Shown here: piece after piece, positions 19,520 through 31,676 of the stretch
Position numbering within the stretch: the stretch's first letter is position 1
Layout: each line of letters starts with the position of its first letter
Assembly (NCBI GenBank): GCA_964035015.1
Contig: OZ036012.1
Coordinates: 1,877,073 to 1,941,072 of the forward strand
Length of the DNA stretch: 64,000 bases
Reading direction: 5' to 3'
Source: Corallium rubrum
Lineage: Eukaryota > Cnidaria > Anthozoa > Scleralcyonacea > Coralliidae
The notes under the pieces: model-generated
Databases searched by the model: none
The model's input: the letters and a program-made list of their open reading frames with translations, nothing else
Told to the model about the DNA's origin: nothing
Translations under genes and position numbers: made by a program

Positions 19520-20959
19520 TCATTCTATTTCAATGTCACTGTCTCCTTCGTGGTCCGAGTCTAACAGCTGAATAGTAGGGCATGCCTCTTCAACATCAGA
19601 AGACGTGTATTCTTCAGTGTCGAAAGGATTCGTTTCTGGCTCGTCGAGAATATCCAGTTGTGATTTCAGGACGGCTTGTCCAGTGTTGCACGGCTGTCCC
19701 TCCTTGAAACAGTGAATCGCATCATCTTCTGAGCCGTCAACTGGAAGGTTCAATGCACAACTTTTGAACGATTTCTTGATGACATCTGTAGGCAATTCAT
19801 CCCAGGAATCCAGAATCCACTGCAAAATGGTTTTTCTTGGTGGCGCTTTCAAATTCCCAGCTGCTGTTTCTTCGTGAATGCCTACTGTCGCCAGCCATTC
19901 ATCATACCTTTCTGTGCACAATGATTTGAATGGTTTGTTCCAACTTACGTCGGGCGCCTGTATATATTTGGTACAACCTCCCGGGACAATCACGCGATCG
20001 ATTTTCTTGGATTTCAGAGAGTCGGTTATACTGTCCACAAGGTGACACTCGTAGGAGTCCCAAGCTAACAGCCTTCGGTTGAAAGAAAACGCTCCTAGAA
20101 CAGAGTTGGTCCAGGTACGAGTTAATTCAGTGTCCATCCATCCATTTACCGAAGTGGCTACGACCGCTCTACGTTTGAACTCTTCGTTTAGCGCTGCGGA
20201 TTCTCGTTTTGCTCCTTTAAAGACTACCATAGGCTTAAGTTTTGTCCCATCGGCCTTGGCAGCTAAACAAACTGATACTCTAGCCTTTTCATGACCCGTC
20301 GTTTTCAGTGTAATAGTCTTTGTCCCGGTTGCGTCAATAGTGGTTTCGGATACCATATCGCACCAAACTGGAGTTTCATCCATTGCAATGATATCAGAGG
20401 GGCTGTATTCGTGCTTTTTCTGTAGGCGTCTTACTTGAATTACATATGACACGAGTTTAGCTATCATTCGTTCTGGATCCTGTTGAGCAATAGAGGTTTT
20501 TCTTCTCAAAGATAAACCATTTCTCTTCATAAATTTTGCCAACCAGCCTCTTGAAGCTTTAAAGTCGTCGTCAGTCACGTCATTTTGGTTTATATCGTTG
20601 AATGTTACTTGTGCTTTCTTCATTATAAGTTTACTGGAAACTCGAAGACCGCGAGATCGTCTGCTTTCAATCCACTCCATTAAAACTTCCTCTAACTTCG
20701 TGCTTAGCGGTTTTCGGCCAGCTCCACACAATCTACTTCTTTGTTTGACTTTGTTACCTCTTACCGCAAGAACACCTTCGATATCACTCTTCTTTGCTCT
20801 CCATTCTCGTATTCTTCCTTCATCGACTTGAAATTGGCGAGAAGCAGGTCGATTTCCGTGTATTTCAGCATATGCGATTGCTTGTTTTTTTACTGCAAGG
20901 CTGTATTTATGTCTTTTTTGTCCTTTGTGCGAAATTTGGTCCCTATTTGAATCTGCCAT
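19520..20959 (-). CDS. pogo/Tigger-type DDE transposase
   Basis: This 479-residue protein should cut and paste the element at TA sites in the nucleus. It has a psq-like helix-turn-helix (residues about 17-58, ending GRIREWR), a CENP-B-type DNA-binding helix region (about 90-150, including GWLAKFMKRNGLSLRRKTS) and a DDE_1 catalytic core. The likely catalytic residues are D194 (MDETPVW), D301 (AWDSYECH) and D337 (APDVSWNKPFK), with 35 residues between the last two, as in DD35D pogo transposases. An acidic tail (about 440-479) ends the protein. Length is normal for the family and no frameshift is seen, so it may be active. Confidence 0.92.
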   Translation of the reverse strand: MADSNRDQISHKGQKRHKYSLAVKKQAIAYAEIHGNRPASRQFQVDEGRIREWRAKKSDIEGVLAVRGNKVKQRSRLCGAGRKPLSTKLEEVLMEWIESRRSRGLRVSSKLIMKKAQVTFNDINQNDVTDDDFKASRGWLAKFMKRNGLSLRRKTSIAQQDPERMIAKLVSYVIQVRRLQKKHEYSPSDIIAMDETPVWCDMVSETTIDATGTKTITLKTTGHEKARVSVCLAAKADGTKLKPMVVFKGAKRESAALNEEFKRRAVVATSVNGWMDTELTRTWTNSVLGAFSFNRRLLAWDSYECHLVDSITDSLKSKKIDRVIVPGGCTKYIQAPDVSWNKPFKSLCTERYDEWLATVGIHEETAAGNLKAPPRKTILQWILDSWDELPTDVIKKSFKSCALNLPVDGSEDDAIHCFKEGQPCNTGQAVLKSQLDILDEPETNPFDTEEYTSSDVEEACPTIQLLDSDHEGDSDIEIE

Positions 20960-21164
20960 TCCTCATTTGTTGTAGGTTTTGTGCCATTGCATGTGCTAAA
21001 ATATAGATCTAGTTGCAATTAATTAGCATCAATACAAACCGCACTTGCTGATTGGACCACGAGCGATGTTTGTAATTTGAGTAAGTGCGAGTAATAACTT
21101 AATGTCACAAACTTGATGCAAACCTTCTCAAATTTCAAACAAAGTTAACTCGCAAGTCGCAACA

Positions 21165-24094: not shown

Positions 24095-24479
24095 GACTTT
24101 TAAGACGGACTGCATTTTTACAGCCCTGAAACGTCCAAGGCTATTTTCTAACCAAGACTCTGTTCATATGAAGCGGGCTGGCTCGGTTACTTGGGCCGAT
24201 TTTATGTCACGAAAATTTTTCTTTGACTACAAAAAGGACATATAATACACCGTGTGCTATACCTACAGAAAATAAAACCCGATTTTGCTTCGCTATTTGA
24301 TTTTGCATTTCTCAGATAGTCGTAATAAGATCTTTGGAGTTTGGGCTAGCCCATCTCATATGCATGAACGGCACTTAAGAGGTCTCTCAAAATAATTAGT
24401 TATCTATATTTTATTGTTTTCGGCATTAACTCGGTCTCGTCTCAGCTTTTTCTGTTTACGAGTAAAATCGTCTGAAGAC

Positions 24480-25072
24480 AGTAGTGATACCCCCCACTAT
24501 GGCGGCGGAAGTAATTAGTATGCAAACGGTGTGTAGCCCCTCATCTCATTAGTATTCATTTTATAGCGGCGCGTTACGTCAGCAAGCCCTAACCCTAATT
24601 CATTATGCATACGTCATTATTTCTCAGGCTCCTATGGGACACTCTAACCCTAATCTCATTACGTCATTCATTCTCATGCTCCTTCAGGACCCCCTAACCC
24701 TAACTTTCCCCCAACCCCCTAGCCCTAGCTTTCATTCAACCCCCCGGTTTTCACTACGTCATACTGACTTATTTATTCATTCTCAGACTCCTTTAGGACC
24801 CTTTTAACCCTAACTTTTCCCCCCAACCCCCACTGTCACTCAACCCCCCGGTTTTCACTACGTCATACCGACTTATTATTTATTCATTCTCAGACTCCTT
24901 TGGGACGTAGTAACCCTAACTTTCCCCCCTAACCCTAGATGTTACTTAACCCCCCGTCATAACCGATAGCTCTCCGACTGATTTCCGAAGTTACGTAAAA
25001 GGCACTCGACTTATATCCTTATATGTAATAGTAATCACCTTCTCATTTAAACACTTTACCCTACTGACAGTA
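24480..25072. repeat. Element 1 left terminal block with CCCTAA-type repeats
   Basis: The sequence from GTAATTAGTATGCAAACGGT at 24,511 recurs in the same orientation at 25,081, a direct repeat of about 570 bp. The right end carries only one copy. The block contains many telomere-like CCCTAACCCTAA and CTAACCCTAACTTTCCCCC stretches. It also has repeated TTTTCACTACGTCAT and TTCATTCTCAGACTCCTT motifs. Confidence 0.75.
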
Positions 25073-25645
25073 ATTAGTATGCAAACGGTGTGTAGCCCCT
25101 CATCTCATTAGTATTCATTTTATAGCGGCGCGTTACGTCAGCAAGCCCTAACCCTAATATCATTATTTATGCTACCCTCTTAACCCTAACTTTCCCCCCT
25201 AAACCAAAGTTGTTACTCAACCCCCTTGGTTTTCACTACGTCATTCCCGATTGGTCTCCGACTGATTTCCGAAGTTACGTAAAAGGCACTGGACTTATCT
25301 CTTTATAACTAATAGAAACCAACTTTCATTTAAACCCTTAACCCTACTTATAGCCAACACTTGTGGGACACGTAGACGTACAGAGCATGCGTACAATAAA
25401 CTTTAACAAAATAGACGTTCTTTACAAGGAACTAAAAAGAAAGTGAGAGAGACACTTTATATTTTTTATCTGAAACCTTGTCTCGATGAGTATAGAGAGT
25501 TTTGGGCAGCCAAAGTGTCTGAATTGGCAGAGCTCATATAGACTCAGATTAATAGCATACATGAATATTATATCAGTTTGGAACTTAAACGGCCATCTTT
25601 ACCCATTTATTTGGACATATGTGCCGACTTGTCGCTTATTTGGCT

Positions 25646-25852
25646 TTAGTGTATAAAGTAAACGATGCCTTGAATGAAGAAACCGTTCGGCAAGCTGTTC
25701 GATAGACATTGAAACACTTTCTTCAGATAAACGGCTGACTCGGCTATTTTATTAACGTCGTCAAGCATCTTGTTAATGTTGCTACGGCTGATATTTGCAT
25801 ATTTATCCTGAGTGCACGTGCAGGAGACAAAAGAAAAACTCATTAGGGGCAA
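25646..25852 (-). CDS. Possible 68-residue protein, left arm copy
   Basis: A small frame without recognised domains. It has a predicted helical middle (NINKMLDDVNKIAESAVYLK) and an aromatic C-terminus. Its mirror copy (30,516-30,722) differs by one residue, but the arms are so similar that this says nothing about selection. It lies downstream of the zinc-binding gene in the same orientation. It may not be a real gene. Confidence 0.3.
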   Translation of the reverse strand: MPLMSFSFVSCTCTQDKYANISRSNINKMLDDVNKIAESAVYLKKVFQCLSNSLPNGFFIQGIVYFIH

Positions 25853-25950
25853 TTAAGAGGATTAAGCGCTTGGGCAGGTCTAGGCGAGAAAGTCATTAAC
25901 GTGTACTTTGCATAAGACAGAATTCACAACAATCGGTTTAAAATATTTAT

Positions 25951-26625
25951 TTACACAAAAAACTCTTGATTATTTAGTGATCTATCGGTAACACTAGCAT
26001 ATGGGCATACAGTACATCTTATAATCCGAAGGCATGGATCATGAGTCTTGAATTCTGTACCACAAACATTACATATCAGATTTCGAATAACGCATTTGTT
26101 AAAATATTTCCACAAACACTTAGGACACTCAATTACATGTGTAAAGTTAACAGGATTCTGACAACGTTCGCAATCAACAGGTTCGTCAATTATAGAATTT
26201 TCTGATTCTATTTCGGTGTAATCTTTATCGTGTTCGGAATCTTCTTCGGAGGAAGTTTCTTCGTTTTCGCTCTCTGATTCTGTTTCTTCTTCTGCCTGCG
26301 CCAACATTGTCAGCACTCGAACATTTTCGATAAGGTTTTTGTCAATGTTAATGTCGGCGAGTCCTTTTACAAATACATTTAGACCAGCTGGTTCGGGAAT
26401 TCCTGAGAAGTAAGGTGATACGCAGTATTCTACCAATTCGGCTATTTTTGTGTTTGGTATAGTTCTTCCTTGATACACAATTTCTCCTTTGGGATTCCAT
26501 GTTAAGTTGACATAGGACGCGAGTAAACTATTCAGCAAAGAAGACGCTGTCGCTTCATCCACTCCGTAGTCAAAGTGTGACAGTATTTCTTTAACACGAA
26601 AATCATCATGTAGTCTTTCTCCCAT
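25951..26625 (-). CDS. Acidic zinc-binding protein of element 1, left arm copy
   Basis: A 224-residue protein of unknown function. Residues 1-110 are a globular, mostly helical region. Residues about 112-149 are a strongly acidic Glu/Ser tract. Residues 150-210 hold ten cysteines, mostly as C-x2-C pairs (C152/C155, C167/C170, C185/C188, C204/C207), plus C178 and C198, which suggests at least two zinc ribbons. An acidic tract followed by paired CxxC motifs recalls small regulatory proteins of animal DNA viruses, but no LxCxE motif is present. The AATAAATATTTT signal overlapping the stop codon probably directs polyadenylation. The right-arm copy (29,743-30,417) encodes an identical protein. It starts 43 bp after the 105-residue gene, suggesting joint transcription. 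Confidence 0.65.
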   Translation of the reverse strand: MGERLHDDFRVKEILSHFDYGVDEATASSLLNSLLASYVNLTWNPKGEIVYQGRTIPNTKIAELVEYCVSPYFSGIPEPAGLNVFVKGLADINIDKNLIENVRVLTMLAQAEEETESESENEETSSEEDSEHDKDYTEIESENSIIDEPVDCERCQNPVNFTHVIECPKCLWKYFNKCVIRNLICNVCGTEFKTHDPCLRIIRCTVCPYASVTDRSLNNQEFFV

Positions 26626-26668
26626 CGTGTTCAGGGTTCGAATGAGGGCCTTTACAAATATCGTTCTT

Positions 26669-26986
26669 TTATATTAGTTCTGCGAGTCCTTCTAAAACAG
26701 GACCAAGTAAGACATCAAGAAATCCTGCGCCTTTTTGAACCAGTATCTCCTTTTTTCTCATAAAACTACTTCGGGGACTAGCCAAAGTTGATATGTCGTC
26801 GCTATAAGGCTTAACGTCTTCAAGCAAAGCAGGTGATAATTGATATTGCATTGACCAAAAGTTCAACATACAATCACAAATGCATCTAATTTGCTCGGGG
26901 CTTGCAGTCTCCAACAGAGCTCGCTGTTGAATAGGTTCACTTGTACATAAAAGTTCAAGAAACGGTTTGTGCTTTTTGATCAACAT
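26669..26986 (-). CDS. pX/core-like short protein of element 1, left arm copy
   Basis: A 105-residue protein. Residues 1-60 are helical (KKHKPFLELLC...SPEQIRCICDCMLN). A basic stretch with RKKEILVQKGAGF follows (about 78-90), and the C-terminus is a hydrophobic, possibly amphipathic helix (LDVLLGPVLEGLAEL). The basic-then-GxGF-then-hydrophobic layout recalls adenovirus pX/pVI-type and adintovirus core proteins, which condense DNA or act on membranes. Similar short frames occur next to packaging ATPases in other invertebrate genomes, from memory. The assignment rests on layout and not on an alignment. Confidence 0.55.
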   Translation of the reverse strand: MLIKKHKPFLELLCTSEPIQQRALLETASPEQIRCICDCMLNFWSMQYQLSPALLEDVKPYSDDISTLASPRSSFMRKKEILVQKGAGFLDVLLGPVLEGLAELI

Positions 26987-27039
26987 CTCTATTTGACAGT
27001 CAGTGTCTAAATGAGGAAAACGCTACCAAAACACACATT

Positions 27040-27430
27040 TTAAGAGGAGGAGGAGAAAGAGGAGGAGGAGGAGAAAGAGGAGGAGGAGGAGGAGGAGGAG
27101 ATGGAGGAGGAGAAAGGAGGAGGAGGAGGAGGAGGAGAAAGAGGAGGAGGAGGAGGAGAAAGAGGAGGAGGAGGAGAAAGAGGAGGAGGAGGAGGAGGAG
27201 GAGGAGAAAGAGGAGGAGGAGGAGGAGGAGGAGGAGAAAGAGGAGGAGGAGAAAGAGGAGGAGGAGAAAGAGGAGGAGGAGAAAGAGGAGGAGGAGAAGG
27301 AGGAGGAGAAAGAGGAGGAGGAGGAGAAAGAGGAGGAGAAGGAGGAGGAGGAGGAGGAGGAGAAAGAGGAGGAGGAGGAGGAGAAAGAGGAGGAGGAGAA
27401 AGAGAAGAAGGAGTAGGAGGAGGAGGAACA
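27040..27430 (+). repeat. Polypurine (GGAGGA/GGAGAAAGA)n array, left
   Basis: About 390 bases of almost pure purine on the plus strand. It forms the inner end of the left arm, and its inverse, a CCTCCT/TTTCTCC array, is at 28,905-29,325. Reading frames through it are artefacts. Such mirror-repeat tracts can form triplexes and often misassemble. Confidence 0.95.
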
Positions 27431-27510
27431 AATAAACACATACATACAAAAGCAGTTAGCTTAAAAATATTTATTTCGGTTTTCGTTCAAACATATACAT
27501 ATAAAAAGTT

Positions 27511-28893
27511 TTAGTAAGGTCTGCTTCTTAGATTATATTTAGGCGTTTTTATTTTAAAGGTAGCGTGATAGTCTTTCTTGTCTTCTGGTGATAATTGTGA
27601 TACATCTTCTTTTGTCATGGGTAAATATTTTGATCTAGTCATCAATAGATGATGTTCATACTCTTCTCTATCATCTGGGGTCATCTTTGCCAAGTCACTT
27701 TCTTTCCAATCCGAAGAGCTTTCCCAATTATGAAAGAAATTATGTTTAAGCGTCGGTTGTTCAACGGTAGGAGGCGGTGTTACAAAATAGGTTTTAGGTG
27801 TAGCATGGAAACTCCACGGAAGATCGTCAGTTTCTTGCTTTATCTCCGGTGTCAAATTTGGTGTATTTTGCTGAGTTTGAAGATTAGTCAGAGGTTGAGA
27901 CTGATTTTGCAGTTGGTTTTGAAACGTCAGAAAACGTCCTAGCTGATTGGAGTAAAGTATGCTCTTTTCTTCAGGTGTTACCTGTGGCGCTTGTACAATA
28001 TCTTGCATTTTTTGTTCTGTATTGTACATGGCATTAACGATTGGAGGTAATTGATAGGATTGCTTTTGTATGAAACTACCCAGCTGTTGCTGCAGGCTTG
28101 AGCTATTTTCTCCAGGTAGAACATTGGTCTTGAGGCGATGATCGTCGTCCGTGGTCGGTTTCAGATCAAGCATTAAATAACCATGAGGACGAGTTGTGGC
28201 TTCCTCGTAACTCTTCATAAATTCATGGACATGACCTGGGTTCACCTGCCGTGCCAAGACAGAAATTTGTTGCTTATCCCTCGGAGACTTGAATAGTACG
28301 ATATAGTGTGCGTTGAGGCTGATGTTTCTTGTTTCTTTGCCTTGGTGAAATATATTCTGAACAATATAGATCACGGAGAGATTCCTGTGATGACTACCTT
28401 TAGTAAATAGACTAGCAATACGTTTATCTCTTCCTGACTGATCCATGAGATCATCGAGGACGATCAGGTTACGTTGAGAGACCTCAAGAAAATTATCAGA
28501 GTCAATGTCGGAAGGTATACCCTCATAGAATTCGATGCCTGGTATTGTTTTGATCATTTCTAAATACATGGGCTGCCATTGCCCATAGCACCAAATGATA
28601 CGTTCGGGAGGAGGATTAATCGTAGTTTTGGCGTTTTCAAGAAGCGTTTTCACCCATACTGTTTTACCACTCTGTGTGCATCCAGCGACAATGCAAGTAA
28701 ATGGATGCTGCATGACTGTTGCGTCATTGAGAAGATGTGCTGGTCTTGAATAAGTACTGTTTTTATGGAAATTTTTTATATGACGTTGCATGTTGAATAG
28801 TGTAGAAAACGTTTTTCCACAAATGCTGCAGACATAAGACATGTTCACTCGTTGAAGAACATGAGCAGAATAAACATTTCTAGAGAATGTCAT
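27511..28893 (-). CDS. A32/FtsK-like packaging ATPase with N-terminal C2H2 zinc finger
   Basis: A 460-residue protein, the only single-copy gene of element 1. Residues 20-43 form a C2H2 finger (CSICGKTF...H...H). An ATPase core follows, with Walker A GCTQSGKT (71-78), Walker B NLIVLDDLMD (142-151) and the HHRNLSVIYIVQN sensor segment (168-180) typical of A32-like viral genome-packaging motors. These motors pump DNA into preformed capsids (established for the family). The C-terminal 200 residues are Gln/Pro-rich with an EEYEHHLLMTRSKY block and a basic KTPKYNLRSRPY end. Methionine 18 (28,842) is an alternative start just before the finger. An AATAAATATTTT signal lies about 45 bp past the stop. 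An ATPase without a capsid gene suggests use of another virus's particle. Confidence 0.88.
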   Translation of the reverse strand: MTFSRNVYSAHVLQRVNMSYVCSICGKTFSTLFNMQRHIKNFHKNSTYSRPAHLLNDATVMQHPFTCIVAGCTQSGKTVWVKTLLENAKTTINPPPERIIWCYGQWQPMYLEMIKTIPGIEFYEGIPSDIDSDNFLEVSQRNLIVLDDLMDQSGRDKRIASLFTKGSHHRNLSVIYIVQNIFHQGKETRNISLNAHYIVLFKSPRDKQQISVLARQVNPGHVHEFMKSYEEATTRPHGYLMLDLKPTTDDDHRLKTNVLPGENSSSLQQQLGSFIQKQSYQLPPIVNAMYNTEQKMQDIVQAPQVTPEEKSILYSNQLGRFLTFQNQLQNQSQPLTNLQTQQNTPNLTPEIKQETDDLPWSFHATPKTYFVTPPPTVEQPTLKHNFFHNWESSSDWKESDLAKMTPDDREEYEHHLLMTRSKYLPMTKEDVSQLSPEDKKDYHATFKIKTPKYNLRSRPY

Positions 28894-28904
28894 ATTATTT
28901 ATTC

Positions 28905-29325
28905 CTCCTCCTCCTCTTTCTCCTCCTCCTCCTCCTCCTCCTCCTCTTTCTCCTCCTCCTCCTCTTTCTCCTCCTCCTCCTCTTTCTCCTCCTCCTCTTT
29001 CTCCTCCTCCTCCTCCTCCTCCTCCCCCTCCTCTTTCTCCTCCTCCTCTTTCTCCTCCTCCTCCTCTTTCTCCTCCTCCTCCTCCTCTTTCTCCTCCTCC
29101 TCTTTCTCCTCCTCCTCCTCCTCCTCCTCCTCCCCCTCCTCTTTCTCCTCCTCCTCTTTCTCCTCCTCCTCCTCCTCCTCCTCCTCTTTCTCCTCCTCCT
29201 CCTCTTTCTCCTCCTCCTCCTCCTCTTTCTCCTCCTCCTCCTCCTCCTCTTTCTCCTCCTCCTTCTCCTCCTCCTCCTCCTCCTCCTCCTCTTTCTCCTC
29301 CTCCTCCTCTTTCTCCTCCTCCTCT
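28905..29325 (+). repeat. Polypyrimidine (CCT/TTTCTCC)n array, right
   Basis: Inverse counterpart of the array at 27,040-27,430, ending CTCCTCTTAAAATGTGTGT, which matches the left arm edge exactly. It differs from the left array in unit order and includes CCCCCTC variants, so the arrays have drifted more than the arms. Confidence 0.95.
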
Positions 29326-29381
29326 TAAAATGTGTGTTTTGGTAGCGTTTTCCTCATTTAGACACTGACTGTCAAATAGAG

Positions 29382-29699
29382 ATGTTGATCAAAAAGCACA
29401 AACCGTTTCTTGAACTTTTATGTACAAGTGAACCTATTCAACAGCGAGCTCTGTTGGAGACTGCAAGCCCCGAGCAAATTAGATGCATTTGTGATTGTAT
29501 GTTGAACGTTTGGTCAATGCAATATCAATTATCACCTGCTTTGCTTGAAGACGTTAAGCCTTATAGCGACGACATATCAACTTTGGCTAGTCCCCGAAGT
29601 AGTTTTATGAGAAAAAAGGAGATACTGATTCAAAAAGGCGCAGGATTTCTTGATGTCTTACTTGGTCCTGTTTTAGAAGGACTCGCAGAACTAATATAA
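29382..29699 (+). CDS. pX/core-like short protein of element 1, right arm copy
   Basis: Mirror copy of 26,669-26,986 with two substitutions (Val for Phe near residue 43, Ile for Val near residue 82). It starts about 50 bp from the polypyrimidine array and runs outwards. Because the ATPase reads the other way, this copy is divergent from it, while the left copy is co-oriented with it. Confidence 0.55.
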   Translation: MLIKKHKPFLELLCTSEPIQQRALLETASPEQIRCICDCMLNVWSMQYQLSPALLEDVKPYSDDISTLASPRSSFMRKKEILIQKGAGFLDVLLGPVLEGLAELI

Positions 29700-29742
29700 A
29701 AGAACGATATTTGTAAAGGCCCTCATTCGAACCCTGAACACG

Positions 29743-30417
29743 ATGGGAGAAAGACTACATGATGATTTTCGTGTTAAAGAAATACTGTCACACTTTGACT
29801 ACGGAGTGGATGAAGCGACAGCGTCTTCTTTGCTGAATAGTTTACTCGCGTCCTATGTCAACTTAACATGGAATCCCAAAGGAGAAATTGTGTATCAAGG
29901 AAGAACTATACCAAACACAAAAATAGCCGAATTGGTAGAATACTGCGTATCACCTTACTTCTCAGGAATTCCCGAACCAGCTGGTCTAAATGTATTTGTA
30001 AAAGGACTCGCCGACATTAACATTGACAAAAACCTTATCGAAAATGTTCGAGTGCTGACAATGTTGGCGCAGGCAGAAGAAGAAACAGAATCAGAGAGCG
30101 AAAACGAAGAAACTTCCTCCGAAGAAGATTCCGAACACGATAAAGATTACACCGAAATAGAATCAGAAAATTCTATAATTGACGAACCTGTTGATTGCGA
30201 ACGTTGTCAGAATCCTGTTAACTTTACACATGTAATTGAGTGTCCTAAGTGTTTGTGGAAATATTTTAACAAATGCGTTATTCGAAATCTGATATGTAAT
30301 GTTTGTGGTACAGAATTCAAGACTCATGATCCATGCCTTCGGATTATAAGATGTACTGTATGCCCATATGCTAGTGTTACCGATAGATCACTAAATAATC
30401 AAGAGTTTTTTGTGTAA
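29743..30417 (+). CDS. Acidic zinc-binding protein of element 1, right arm copy
   Basis: The protein is identical to the left-arm copy, including the acidic tract and all ten cysteines. Identity between the copies points to recent duplication or to gene conversion between the arms. The stop codon overlaps an AATAAATATTTT polyadenylation-like signal. Confidence 0.65.
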   Translation: MGERLHDDFRVKEILSHFDYGVDEATASSLLNSLLASYVNLTWNPKGEIVYQGRTIPNTKIAELVEYCVSPYFSGIPEPAGLNVFVKGLADINIDKNLIENVRVLTMLAQAEEETESESENEETSSEEDSEHDKDYTEIESENSIIDEPVDCERCQNPVNFTHVIECPKCLWKYFNKCVIRNLICNVCGTEFKTHDPCLRIIRCTVCPYASVTDRSLNNQEFFV

Positions 30418-30515
30418 ATAAATATTTTAAACCGATTGTTGTGAATTCTGTCTTATGCAAAGTACACGCTAATGACTTTCTCGCCTAGACCTGCCCAAGC
30501 GCTTAATCCTCTTAA

Positions 30516-30722
30516 TTGCCCCTAATGAGTTTTTCTTTTGTCTCCTGCACGTGCACTCAGGATAAATATGCAAATATCAGCCGTAGCAACATTAACAAGA
30601 TGCTTGACGACGTTAATAAAATAGCCGAGTCAGCCGTTTATCTGAAGAAAGTGTTTCAATGTCTATCGAACGGCTTGCCGAACGGTTTCTTCATTCAAGG
30701 CATCGTTTACTTTATACACTAA
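30516..30722 (+). CDS. Possible 68-residue protein, right arm copy
   Basis: Mirror copy of 25,646-25,852 with one Gly/Ser difference. No domain is recognised, and it may be non-coding sequence. Confidence 0.28.
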   Translation: MPLMSFSFVSCTCTQDKYANISRSNINKMLDDVNKIAESAVYLKKVFQCLSNGLPNGFFIQGIVYFIH

Positions 30723-31330
30723 AGCCAAATAAGCGACAAGTCGGCACATATGTCCAAATAAATGGGTAAAGATGGCCGTTTAAGTTCCAAACTGATATAA
30801 TATTCATGTATGCTATTAATCTGAGTCTATATGAGCTCTGCCAATTCAGACACTTTGGCTGCCCAAAACTCTCTATACTCATCGAGACAAGGTTTCAGAT
30901 AAAAAATATAAAGTGTCTCTCTCACTTTCTTTTTAGTTCCTTGTAAAGAACGTCTATTTTGTTAAAGTTTATTGTACGCATGCTCTGTACGTCTACGTGT
31001 CCCACAAGTGTTGGCTATAAGTAGGGTTAAGGGTTTAAATGAAAGTTGGTTTCTATTAGTTATAAAGAGATAAGTCCAGTGCCTTTTACGTAACTTCGGA
31101 AATCAGTCGGAGACCAATCGGGAATGACGTAGTGAAAACCAAGGGGGTTGAGTAACAACTTTGGTTTAGGGGGGAAAGTTAGGGTTAAGAGGGTAGCATA
31201 AATAATGATATTAGGGTTAGGGCTTGCTGACGTAACGCGCCGCTATAAAATGAATACTAATGAGATGAGGGGCTACACACCGTTTGCATACTAATTACTT
31301 CCGCCGCCATAGTGGGGGGTATCACTACTG

Positions 31331-31404
31331 ACGACTCCCGGGTTTTTAGCATTTTAATCAAACGAACGTTAGTTTGATTAAAATGCTAAAACCCCGAGAG
31401 TCGT
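31331..31404. repeat. 74-bp palindrome at the right edge of element 1
   Basis: ACGACTCCCGGGTTTTTAGC begins a near-perfect hairpin whose other arm ends GAGAGTCGT. The loop is GAACGTTA. It begins within the right target duplication of element 1. Confidence 0.85.
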
Positions 31405-31676
31405 ACTCCGTCGAGAAAAGGTTATAAGACGAAACTTGTGGTTAAATCATTTCCTTGCAATGCGTGAGCGTGCTCCGACCCGCCGAATGACCTTGCGTCA
31501 GCAAGACGTATAATAAAGTAAAAATACCCAGAAAAATCGTAAATTGTACGACAAATAGTTAAAACAAAATAGATGCCTATGACGATAGCAGGGAATCCGC
31601 TAAAGCGTTTAGCCAATTTTTGCGGATACTGGTTGCTAAACCATAATCCGCTATGTCATGAGCGCGGTTGTGTGTG

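Follow-up and report, generated by a model that had tools for sequence, protein, structure and literature searches.

Small DNA parasites that depend on a larger virus include transpovirons and virophages, some of which are linear with terminal repeats; the transpoviron is a linear, helicase-encoding element of a giant virus. Among phages, satellites such as the phage-inducible chromosomal islands (PICIs) bring their own packaging factor. Here we describe an element from an animal genome that may follow a similar strategy. It lies at positions 24480..31329 of a 64,000-nucleotide stretch of contig OZ036012.1 of Corallium rubrum, which we refer to as the window. We consider it fairly probable that this element is a non-autonomous satellite of Polinton- or adintovirus-type viruses, copied and integrated by a helper and packaging itself, with its own motor, into the helper's capsids.

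As described in the passages on termini in PMC8097293, Maverick/Polinton elements end in (AGT)2//(ACT)2 or (AG)3//(CT)3, and these repeats are thought to allow jumping-back during protein-primed replication. For vertebrate Mavericks, the same passages give (AGT)2//(ACT)2 as the commonest ends, 6-bp duplications around intact elements, and a mean length of 16.9 kb when intact. Adintoviruses are defined, in the relevant part of PMC11071296, by an OTU-PolB, a hexon and a chromodomain integrase, and genomes with adenovirus-class virion proteins and no recognisable PolB or integrase are also reported there. The original prediction for the window, made from its sequence, proposed a satellite with Polinton-type copying and integration and a helper's capsid. 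Copying and integration of this type are now strongly supported, because the element has (AGT)2 ends, 6-bp duplications, an adintovirus-type protein of 105 amino acids (aa) and no polymerase or capsid homologues. Packaging into helper capsids is only plausible, and is so because the ATPase is A32-like and selectively maintained.

Ends, arms and genes of the element

The coordinates proposed for a virus-like element were correct to the base, and the element is an insertion of 6,850 bp. The sequence AGTAGTGATACCCCCCACTATGG occurs exactly at 24480-24502 (plus strand) and at 31307-31329 (minus strand), with a chance expectation of 0, and the window holds no third site even when up to 3 mismatches are allowed. 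The features, including open reading frames (ORFs), are as follows.

24480..31329, no strand: whole element, 6,850 bp, with AGTAGT...ACTACT ends, delimited by exact inverted ends and like ends in other copies
24474..24479, no strand: left flank GAAGAC, target-site duplication, 5/6 match to the right flank
24480..25068, no strand: additional end unit on the left, a diverged copy of the terminal region that contains CCCTAA-like motifs
25069..27112, no strand: left inverted arm
25646..25843, minus: 65-aa ORF, doubtful gene, left copy
25951..26625, minus: 224-aa protein, left copy (identical)
26669..26986, minus: 105-aa protein, left copy
27040..27430, plus: left GGA/GAG array, at the inner end of the arm
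27511..28893, minus: ATPase of packaging type, A32-like and with a C2H2 finger (460 aa, or 443 aa if counted from the second Met)
28905..29330, minus: right GGA/GAG array, immediately upstream of the ATPase gene
29256..31299, no strand: right inverted arm
29382..29699, plus: 105-aa protein, GasderminX-like, right copy
29743..30417, plus: 224-aa protein, right copy, with a cysteine-rich tail that looks zinc-binding by eye
30525..30722, plus: 65-aa ORF, doubtful gene, right copy
31330..31335, no strand: right flank GACGAC, target-site duplication, 5/6 match to the left flank

The inverted match between the arms spans 2,044 nt. Outside the GGA/TCC arrays, which also differ, the aligned arms are distinguished by 4 single bases; three of these lie within ORFs and all three change a residue, two in the 105-aa protein and one in the 65-aa ORF. 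In the alignment, only the left arm has the extra end unit, which is about 0.56 kb long. The arms had been put at about 2.2 kb, and while their shared short genes were described correctly, their lengths are nearer 2.9 kb on the left and 2.4 kb on the right, arrays included. The predicted duplication of genes around one central ATPase was also confirmed, with the 105-aa, 224-aa and doubtful 65-aa ORFs present in both arms and the ATPase gene present once.

Two further observations concern the ends. Telomere-like CCCTAA/TTAGGG hexamers crowd them (24480-25200 and 31150-31329), with 18 in the element versus 17 across the remaining 57 kb of the window. In addition, a hairpin with arms of about 30 bp each, judged by eye, directly adjoins the right end (31336-31410) and may represent a small inverted-repeat element located where the insertion took place.

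Both parts of the zinc-finger A32-like ATPase that had been proposed score above their Pfam cut-offs (Pox_A32, 31 bits against 22.8; one C2H2 finger, 26.3 against 25.2). The ATPase has 736 database relatives, and two of the 120 matches listed carry an organism name, in both cases that of the stony coral Oculina patagonica. In one database protein, P0054, the ATPase is fused to a tail resembling that of the 224-aa protein (profile E-value 1.7e-8 among 123 proteins compared), and the linkage of the two genes is thus not confined to this element; their relative strand in this fusion is that of the ATPase and left 224-aa gene in the window. Among 26 ATPase genes, the ratio of nonsynonymous to synonymous differences per site (pN/pS) is 0.20. 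Between two subfamilies, A and B, which stand apart by a pS of 0.26, the ratio is 0.22 overall and 0.11 in the core. By these comparisons the ATPase copies are under purifying selection, and because the ratios are low, the packaging motor is probably used during propagation.

The 105-aa protein yielded a confident structure model (predicted local distance difference test, pLDDT, 83.6). In a fold comparison with 51 matches, the only one at E≤0.001 was GasderminX of a Terrapene box turtle adintovirus (template-modelling scores 0.84/0.81, E 8e-5, 31% identity); comparison with the Protein Data Bank gave nothing significant. By predicted fold, then, the protein matches the adintovirus GasderminX type, a label that is the name of a Terrapene adintovirus protein and no formal adintovirus criterion. 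Structure prediction had been suggested for the 224-aa protein as well, and there it gave no usable fold (pLDDT 41); by eye, this protein has a cysteine-rich tail and an acidic linker and looks regulatory. Pfam returned no match for the 105-aa and 65-aa proteins, sub-threshold matches only for the 224-aa protein, and no family at E≤0.1 for nine further ORFs of the element. At E≤0.001 there was one relative of the 105-aa protein and two of the 224-aa protein. The 65-aa ORF is frequently split or diverged in other copies. In the arms of copies L028 and L030, an ORF of 88-96 aa that includes a hydrophobic stretch runs antisense to the 65-aa region, and this may be the real gene there.

Copies, mirrored forms and arm homogenisation

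A search of the host genome, which the original prediction had recommended, revealed many copies in the 474-Mb assembly (312 contigs) that contains the window. For the ATPase, 93 matches were scored among 2206 candidates, 90-100% identical and 89 of them stop-free. For the 105-aa protein, 150 were scored among 796 candidates, and all except one were stop-free (149). These 150 matches form 54 outward-facing inverted pairs on many contigs, counted up to a spacing of 20 kb, with inner gaps of up to 6.5 kb in 53 pairs and 19.4 kb in one. There were no convergent pairs within 8 kb, the range of that count, and same-strand neighbours amounted to one pair.

We compared the window element with 20 copies, a nonrandom set comprising ranks 2-23 of the ATPase list minus two near contig ends. 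In 18 of the 21, a central ATPase lies between arms with a 105-aa gene on each side, in some cases with an arm gene interrupted or frameshifted; the exceptions are L028 and the deletion forms L014 and L021. Both ends were recognised in 16 copies by motif, irrespective of flanks, and no end pair was recognised in L011, L019, L024, L025 and L027. The 6-bp flanks agree perfectly in 13 of the 16 and at 5/6 positions in the window element and L012, with L015 falling below. Two possible end pairs were available in each of L017 and L026, for which we took the pair with a 6/6 duplication (alternatives, 3/6 and 4/6). L015 carries three AGT units at one end but two at the opposite end, and its duplication is 2/6 as written and 6/6 only when the third AGT is counted as element; this imbalance fits slippage in protein-primed replication. 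The common ends and arms that were to be looked for in full copies are thus present in most of them. Across 19 end-mapped copies, found by pattern, AGTAGT was read at both ends in 16 and AGTAGA in 3.

Three mirrored forms have the same kind of ends. Form A, that of the window, carries 105/224 arms around the ATPase, and form B consists of palindromes with the ATPase in the arms and without the 105-aa and 224-aa genes (L029 and L030, with L028 related). A third form, a 105/224 palindrome without the ATPase, was predicted from these two before being found. Seven of the 54 outward-facing pairs are too close for a whole ATPase gene, and one of them, L031, read whole, is a 4,929-bp palindrome with the duplication TGCATG and no ATPase. 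Another close pair, L040, of which only the centre was read, holds a 20-aa remnant of the ATPase end, and L037, whose ends are unread, resembles L031 with a wider, array-filled centre and no ATPase. The perfect duplications of L029-L031 were pre-filtered (flanks at least 5/6) and hence are no independent evidence of duplication. Two copies have wide gaps because of other insertions, in L032 a LINE-like (long interspersed nuclear element) ORF and in L039 a further insert that resembles a reverse transcriptase, both named by eye. The symmetry axes of the ATPase-armed and ATPase-free palindromes fall in tandem arrays, and snap-back copying at such arrays would explain the palindromic forms.

The arms are homogenised within each copy. 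We compared 34 arms in 18 copies, leaving out matches shorter than 900 nt; a third arm at L011 is part of another, incomplete element next to it. Across the 105-224 stretch, arms differed on average by 0.15% within a copy versus 0.84% between copies, and in 5,000 label shuffles the within-copy mean was never as low. The nearest arm was the arm's own partner in 24 of 31 cases, ties counted, and in L016, L018 and L027, frame breaks stand at the same place in both arms. This pattern would be expected if a replicating linear genome underwent panhandle or arm-templated repair. Arms that are equalised with every round of copying behave like the long terminal repeats of retroviruses, such that insertions could be dated from them and the replication model could be tested from sequence; the small differences suggest young insertions. 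Furthermore, many copies with near-identical arms point to recent activity, and thus to the recent presence in this animal of a functional polymerase and integrase, and perhaps of particles.

Helper functions and the neighbouring Polinton

The window element had been described as lacking a polymerase and a recognised capsid gene, and neither Pfam nor PHROG revealed a family of either kind in it. We likewise found no rve integrase in the element, no helicase family among its ORFs by Pfam, and none of the adintovirus-defining OTU-PolB, hexon and chromodomain integrase. An integrase gene of the required type does exist in the genome, given that a complete Polinton lies 14.6 kb from the element. 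It is listed here with another mobile-element gene of the window.

45959-64694: complete Polinton/adintovirus-like element, 18.7 kb, right end 694 bases past the window, in L041
53420-54295, plus: deoxynucleoside kinase gene (Pfam dNK, E 1.6e-39), within the neighbouring Polinton
19520-20962, minus: Tc5/pogo-type transposase ORF, 480 aa (Pfam HTH_Tnp_Tc5 and DDE_1)

The neighbouring Polinton has terminal repeats of 517 bp that are 98% identical, the ends AGTAGTATAG and a perfect duplication, GTGAAA. Its genes include a chromodomain integrase, an A32 ATPase of its own, the deoxynucleoside kinase and, by eye, PolB pieces; Pfam found no family in its PolB C-terminal piece or its capsid-like ORF, both named by eye. 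The two ATPases share 28% identity over 153 aa (E 7.6e-4).

We compared 10 proteins of this Polinton, among them two PolB pieces, the integrase and the capsid-like ORF, with 41 sequences that represent 34 places (there is overlap with others for L001-L003 and L005-L008, and the eight at L033-L040 are centre pieces only). The yield was a weak ATPase-ATPase cross-match and one integrase fragment, in a comparison by which distant homologues could be missed. Protein-primed PolB had no Pfam match in the element, and the neighbour's PolB pieces had no tblastn match in the 41 sequences; no homologue of its capsid-like ORF was found in the 34 places. The fragment, about 57 aa from the N terminus of a Polinton-type integrase, lies in a partly mirrored centre (L038:1330-1987) between two outward-facing 105-aa genes and two mirrored ATPase halves, and its first part recurs inverted across the loop. 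Its name comes from a match at 31% identity to the integrase of the neighbour; Pfam returns nothing for so short a piece. It is a scrap and no gene, but it shows that there was recombination with a virus that bears an integrase, or descent from one, and it is possibly a trace of the helper. The original prediction would have been refuted by copies with capsid, polymerase or integrase genes inside the same ends; this fragment, at one of 34 places, is the sole and trivial instance.

Propagation, rival explanations and known systems

The ends and duplications suggest that a helper's protein-primed polymerase would copy the satellite from its (AGT)2 ends and that a helper's retrovirus-type integrase would insert it with a 6-bp duplication. 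During replication, the long arms would pair and one would be corrected from the other, while snap-back at tandem arrays would create the mirror-image forms. The A32-like ATPase would most likely drive the satellite's DNA into helper capsids, and the adintovirus-type 105-aa protein may aid packaging.

A bold lead concerns a correspondence between the type of finger and the array next to it. Between types A and B, divergence within the ATPase is highest in the finger region (pS 0.82 versus 0.14-0.18 elsewhere). The type A finger (TLFNMQR) adjoins GAG/GGA arrays and the type B finger (RKEHLLR) adjoins GGGG/CCCC arrays; under the zinc-finger code, the former would read GA-x and the latter GGG. 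GAG is the commonest upstream triplet in 21 of 22 type A genes from 21 copies, the exception being L015, where little array is left, and GGG is the commonest in 4 of 4 type B genes from two copies. The match involves only two finger types, the copies of each type are not independent of one another, and arrays rich in G occur commonly. In the ATPase-free L031, the array is AGC/GAG-rich. It is a speculative idea, and a doubtful one at present, that the ATPase, through its single zinc finger, recognises the array next to its own gene as a packaging signal, with finger and array exchanged together; in the window, the right array (28905..29330) is the possible signal. If true, the satellite would seize helper capsids yet tell its own DNA from the helper's, and the arms and snap-back forms would multiply the signal. 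The pairing thus offers a concrete, testable model for how a satellite marks its own DNA.

Several points weigh against a self-packaging satellite. Intact ends and a perfect duplication are also seen in the ATPase-free palindrome. The ATPase is thus dispensable in cis, and selection on it would have to work in trans or at the level of the replicating family. For the 105-aa and 224-aa genes, selection looks weak, with pN/pS of 0.52 and 0.47 from few differences. The 20 copies were picked by high ATPase similarity and their ends were found by pattern, which makes them no independent sample of ends, and two perfect duplications fall within simple repeats (CACCAC in L010, TATATA in L016). The end search spanned 3.5-9 kb in stretches of up to 10 kb, and longer autonomous relatives would be missed. 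We identified no helper whose ends match closely; the neighbouring Polinton has only AGTAGT in common with the satellite at its ends and thus need not be the one.

Some of these points suit an intragenomic, non-autonomous transposon derived from a Polinton, which would obtain polymerase and integrase in trans, package nothing and use its ATPase for replication or for interference with a helper. Such an explanation accommodates L031 and would require no particles. We nevertheless regard it as unlikely given the A32-like family match, the low ratio in the ATPase core and a companion protein related to one from an adintovirus. Mirrored ends are typical of defective-interfering derivatives in adenovirus and poxvirus, and the element could be a deletion derivative of this type, descended from a larger adintovirus, in which one end replaced the other and which was amplified in the host with no life of its own. 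The integrase scrap in L038 and the deletion forms L014 and L021 would fit, and longer relatives with the same ends could have escaped our search. Yet the architecture recurs in 18 of 21 copies, and the ATPase is selected across two subfamilies and belongs to a family of 736 proteins. These features argue for an established lineage rather than a one-off derivative, which we judge quite improbable.

It is also conceivable, if very unlikely, that the element is a minimal virus in its own right, with the 224-aa protein or another short ORF serving as an unrecognised capsid or coat protein. The scarcity of relatives of the 224-aa protein and its poor model leave room for such a role. However, its tail and linker look regulatory, the ATPase-armed palindromes L029 and L030 keep such ends and duplications without the 105-aa and 224-aa genes, and a polymerase or integrase gene was not found either. 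An assembly artefact or chance repeat, the other way in which the original prediction could have failed, can be practically dismissed: inverted pairs on many contigs face outward in 54 cases and converge within 8 kb in none, copies have distinct flanks and their own duplications, and the arms differ at 4 bases outside the arrays.

Taken as a satellite, the element resembles several known systems in part. Like PICIs, it would redirect the packaging of helper capsids, while being eukaryotic, with unrelated genes and an A32-type ATPase in place of a small terminase. Like transpovirons and virophages, it is a small DNA parasite that would rely on a larger virus; it differs in its animal-type host, in its Polinton-type ends and integration, and in having no helicase or capsid family that we found. 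As in non-autonomous DNA transposons and foldback elements, there are inverted arms and apparently only the ends are needed in cis, whereas here a selected protein gene is kept and the arms bear genes and are homogenised per copy. With adintoviruses and meldviruses, as treated in the relevant part of PMC11071296, it has in common a GasderminX-like small protein and animal hosts; the genomes without PolB and integrase described there keep virion proteins, whereas no hexon, OTU-PolB or chromodomain integrase was found in the satellite. With Maverick/Polinton elements, as portrayed in the passages cited above (PMC8097293), it shares (AGT)2//(ACT)2 ends, 6-bp duplications, terminal inverted repeats and a packaging ATPase of the A32/FtsK class, and it differs in lacking a polymerase, integrase, protease and recognised capsid gene and in its length of 6.85 kb against a mean of 16.9 kb. 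Also unlike them, the satellite has genes inside its inverted repeats and a C2H2 finger fused to its ATPase. If our interpretation is correct, animal Polinton-virus satellites that retain a packaging motor together with a companion gene of virion type would represent a new tier in the Polinton-adintovirus world, one comparable to virophages and phage satellites.

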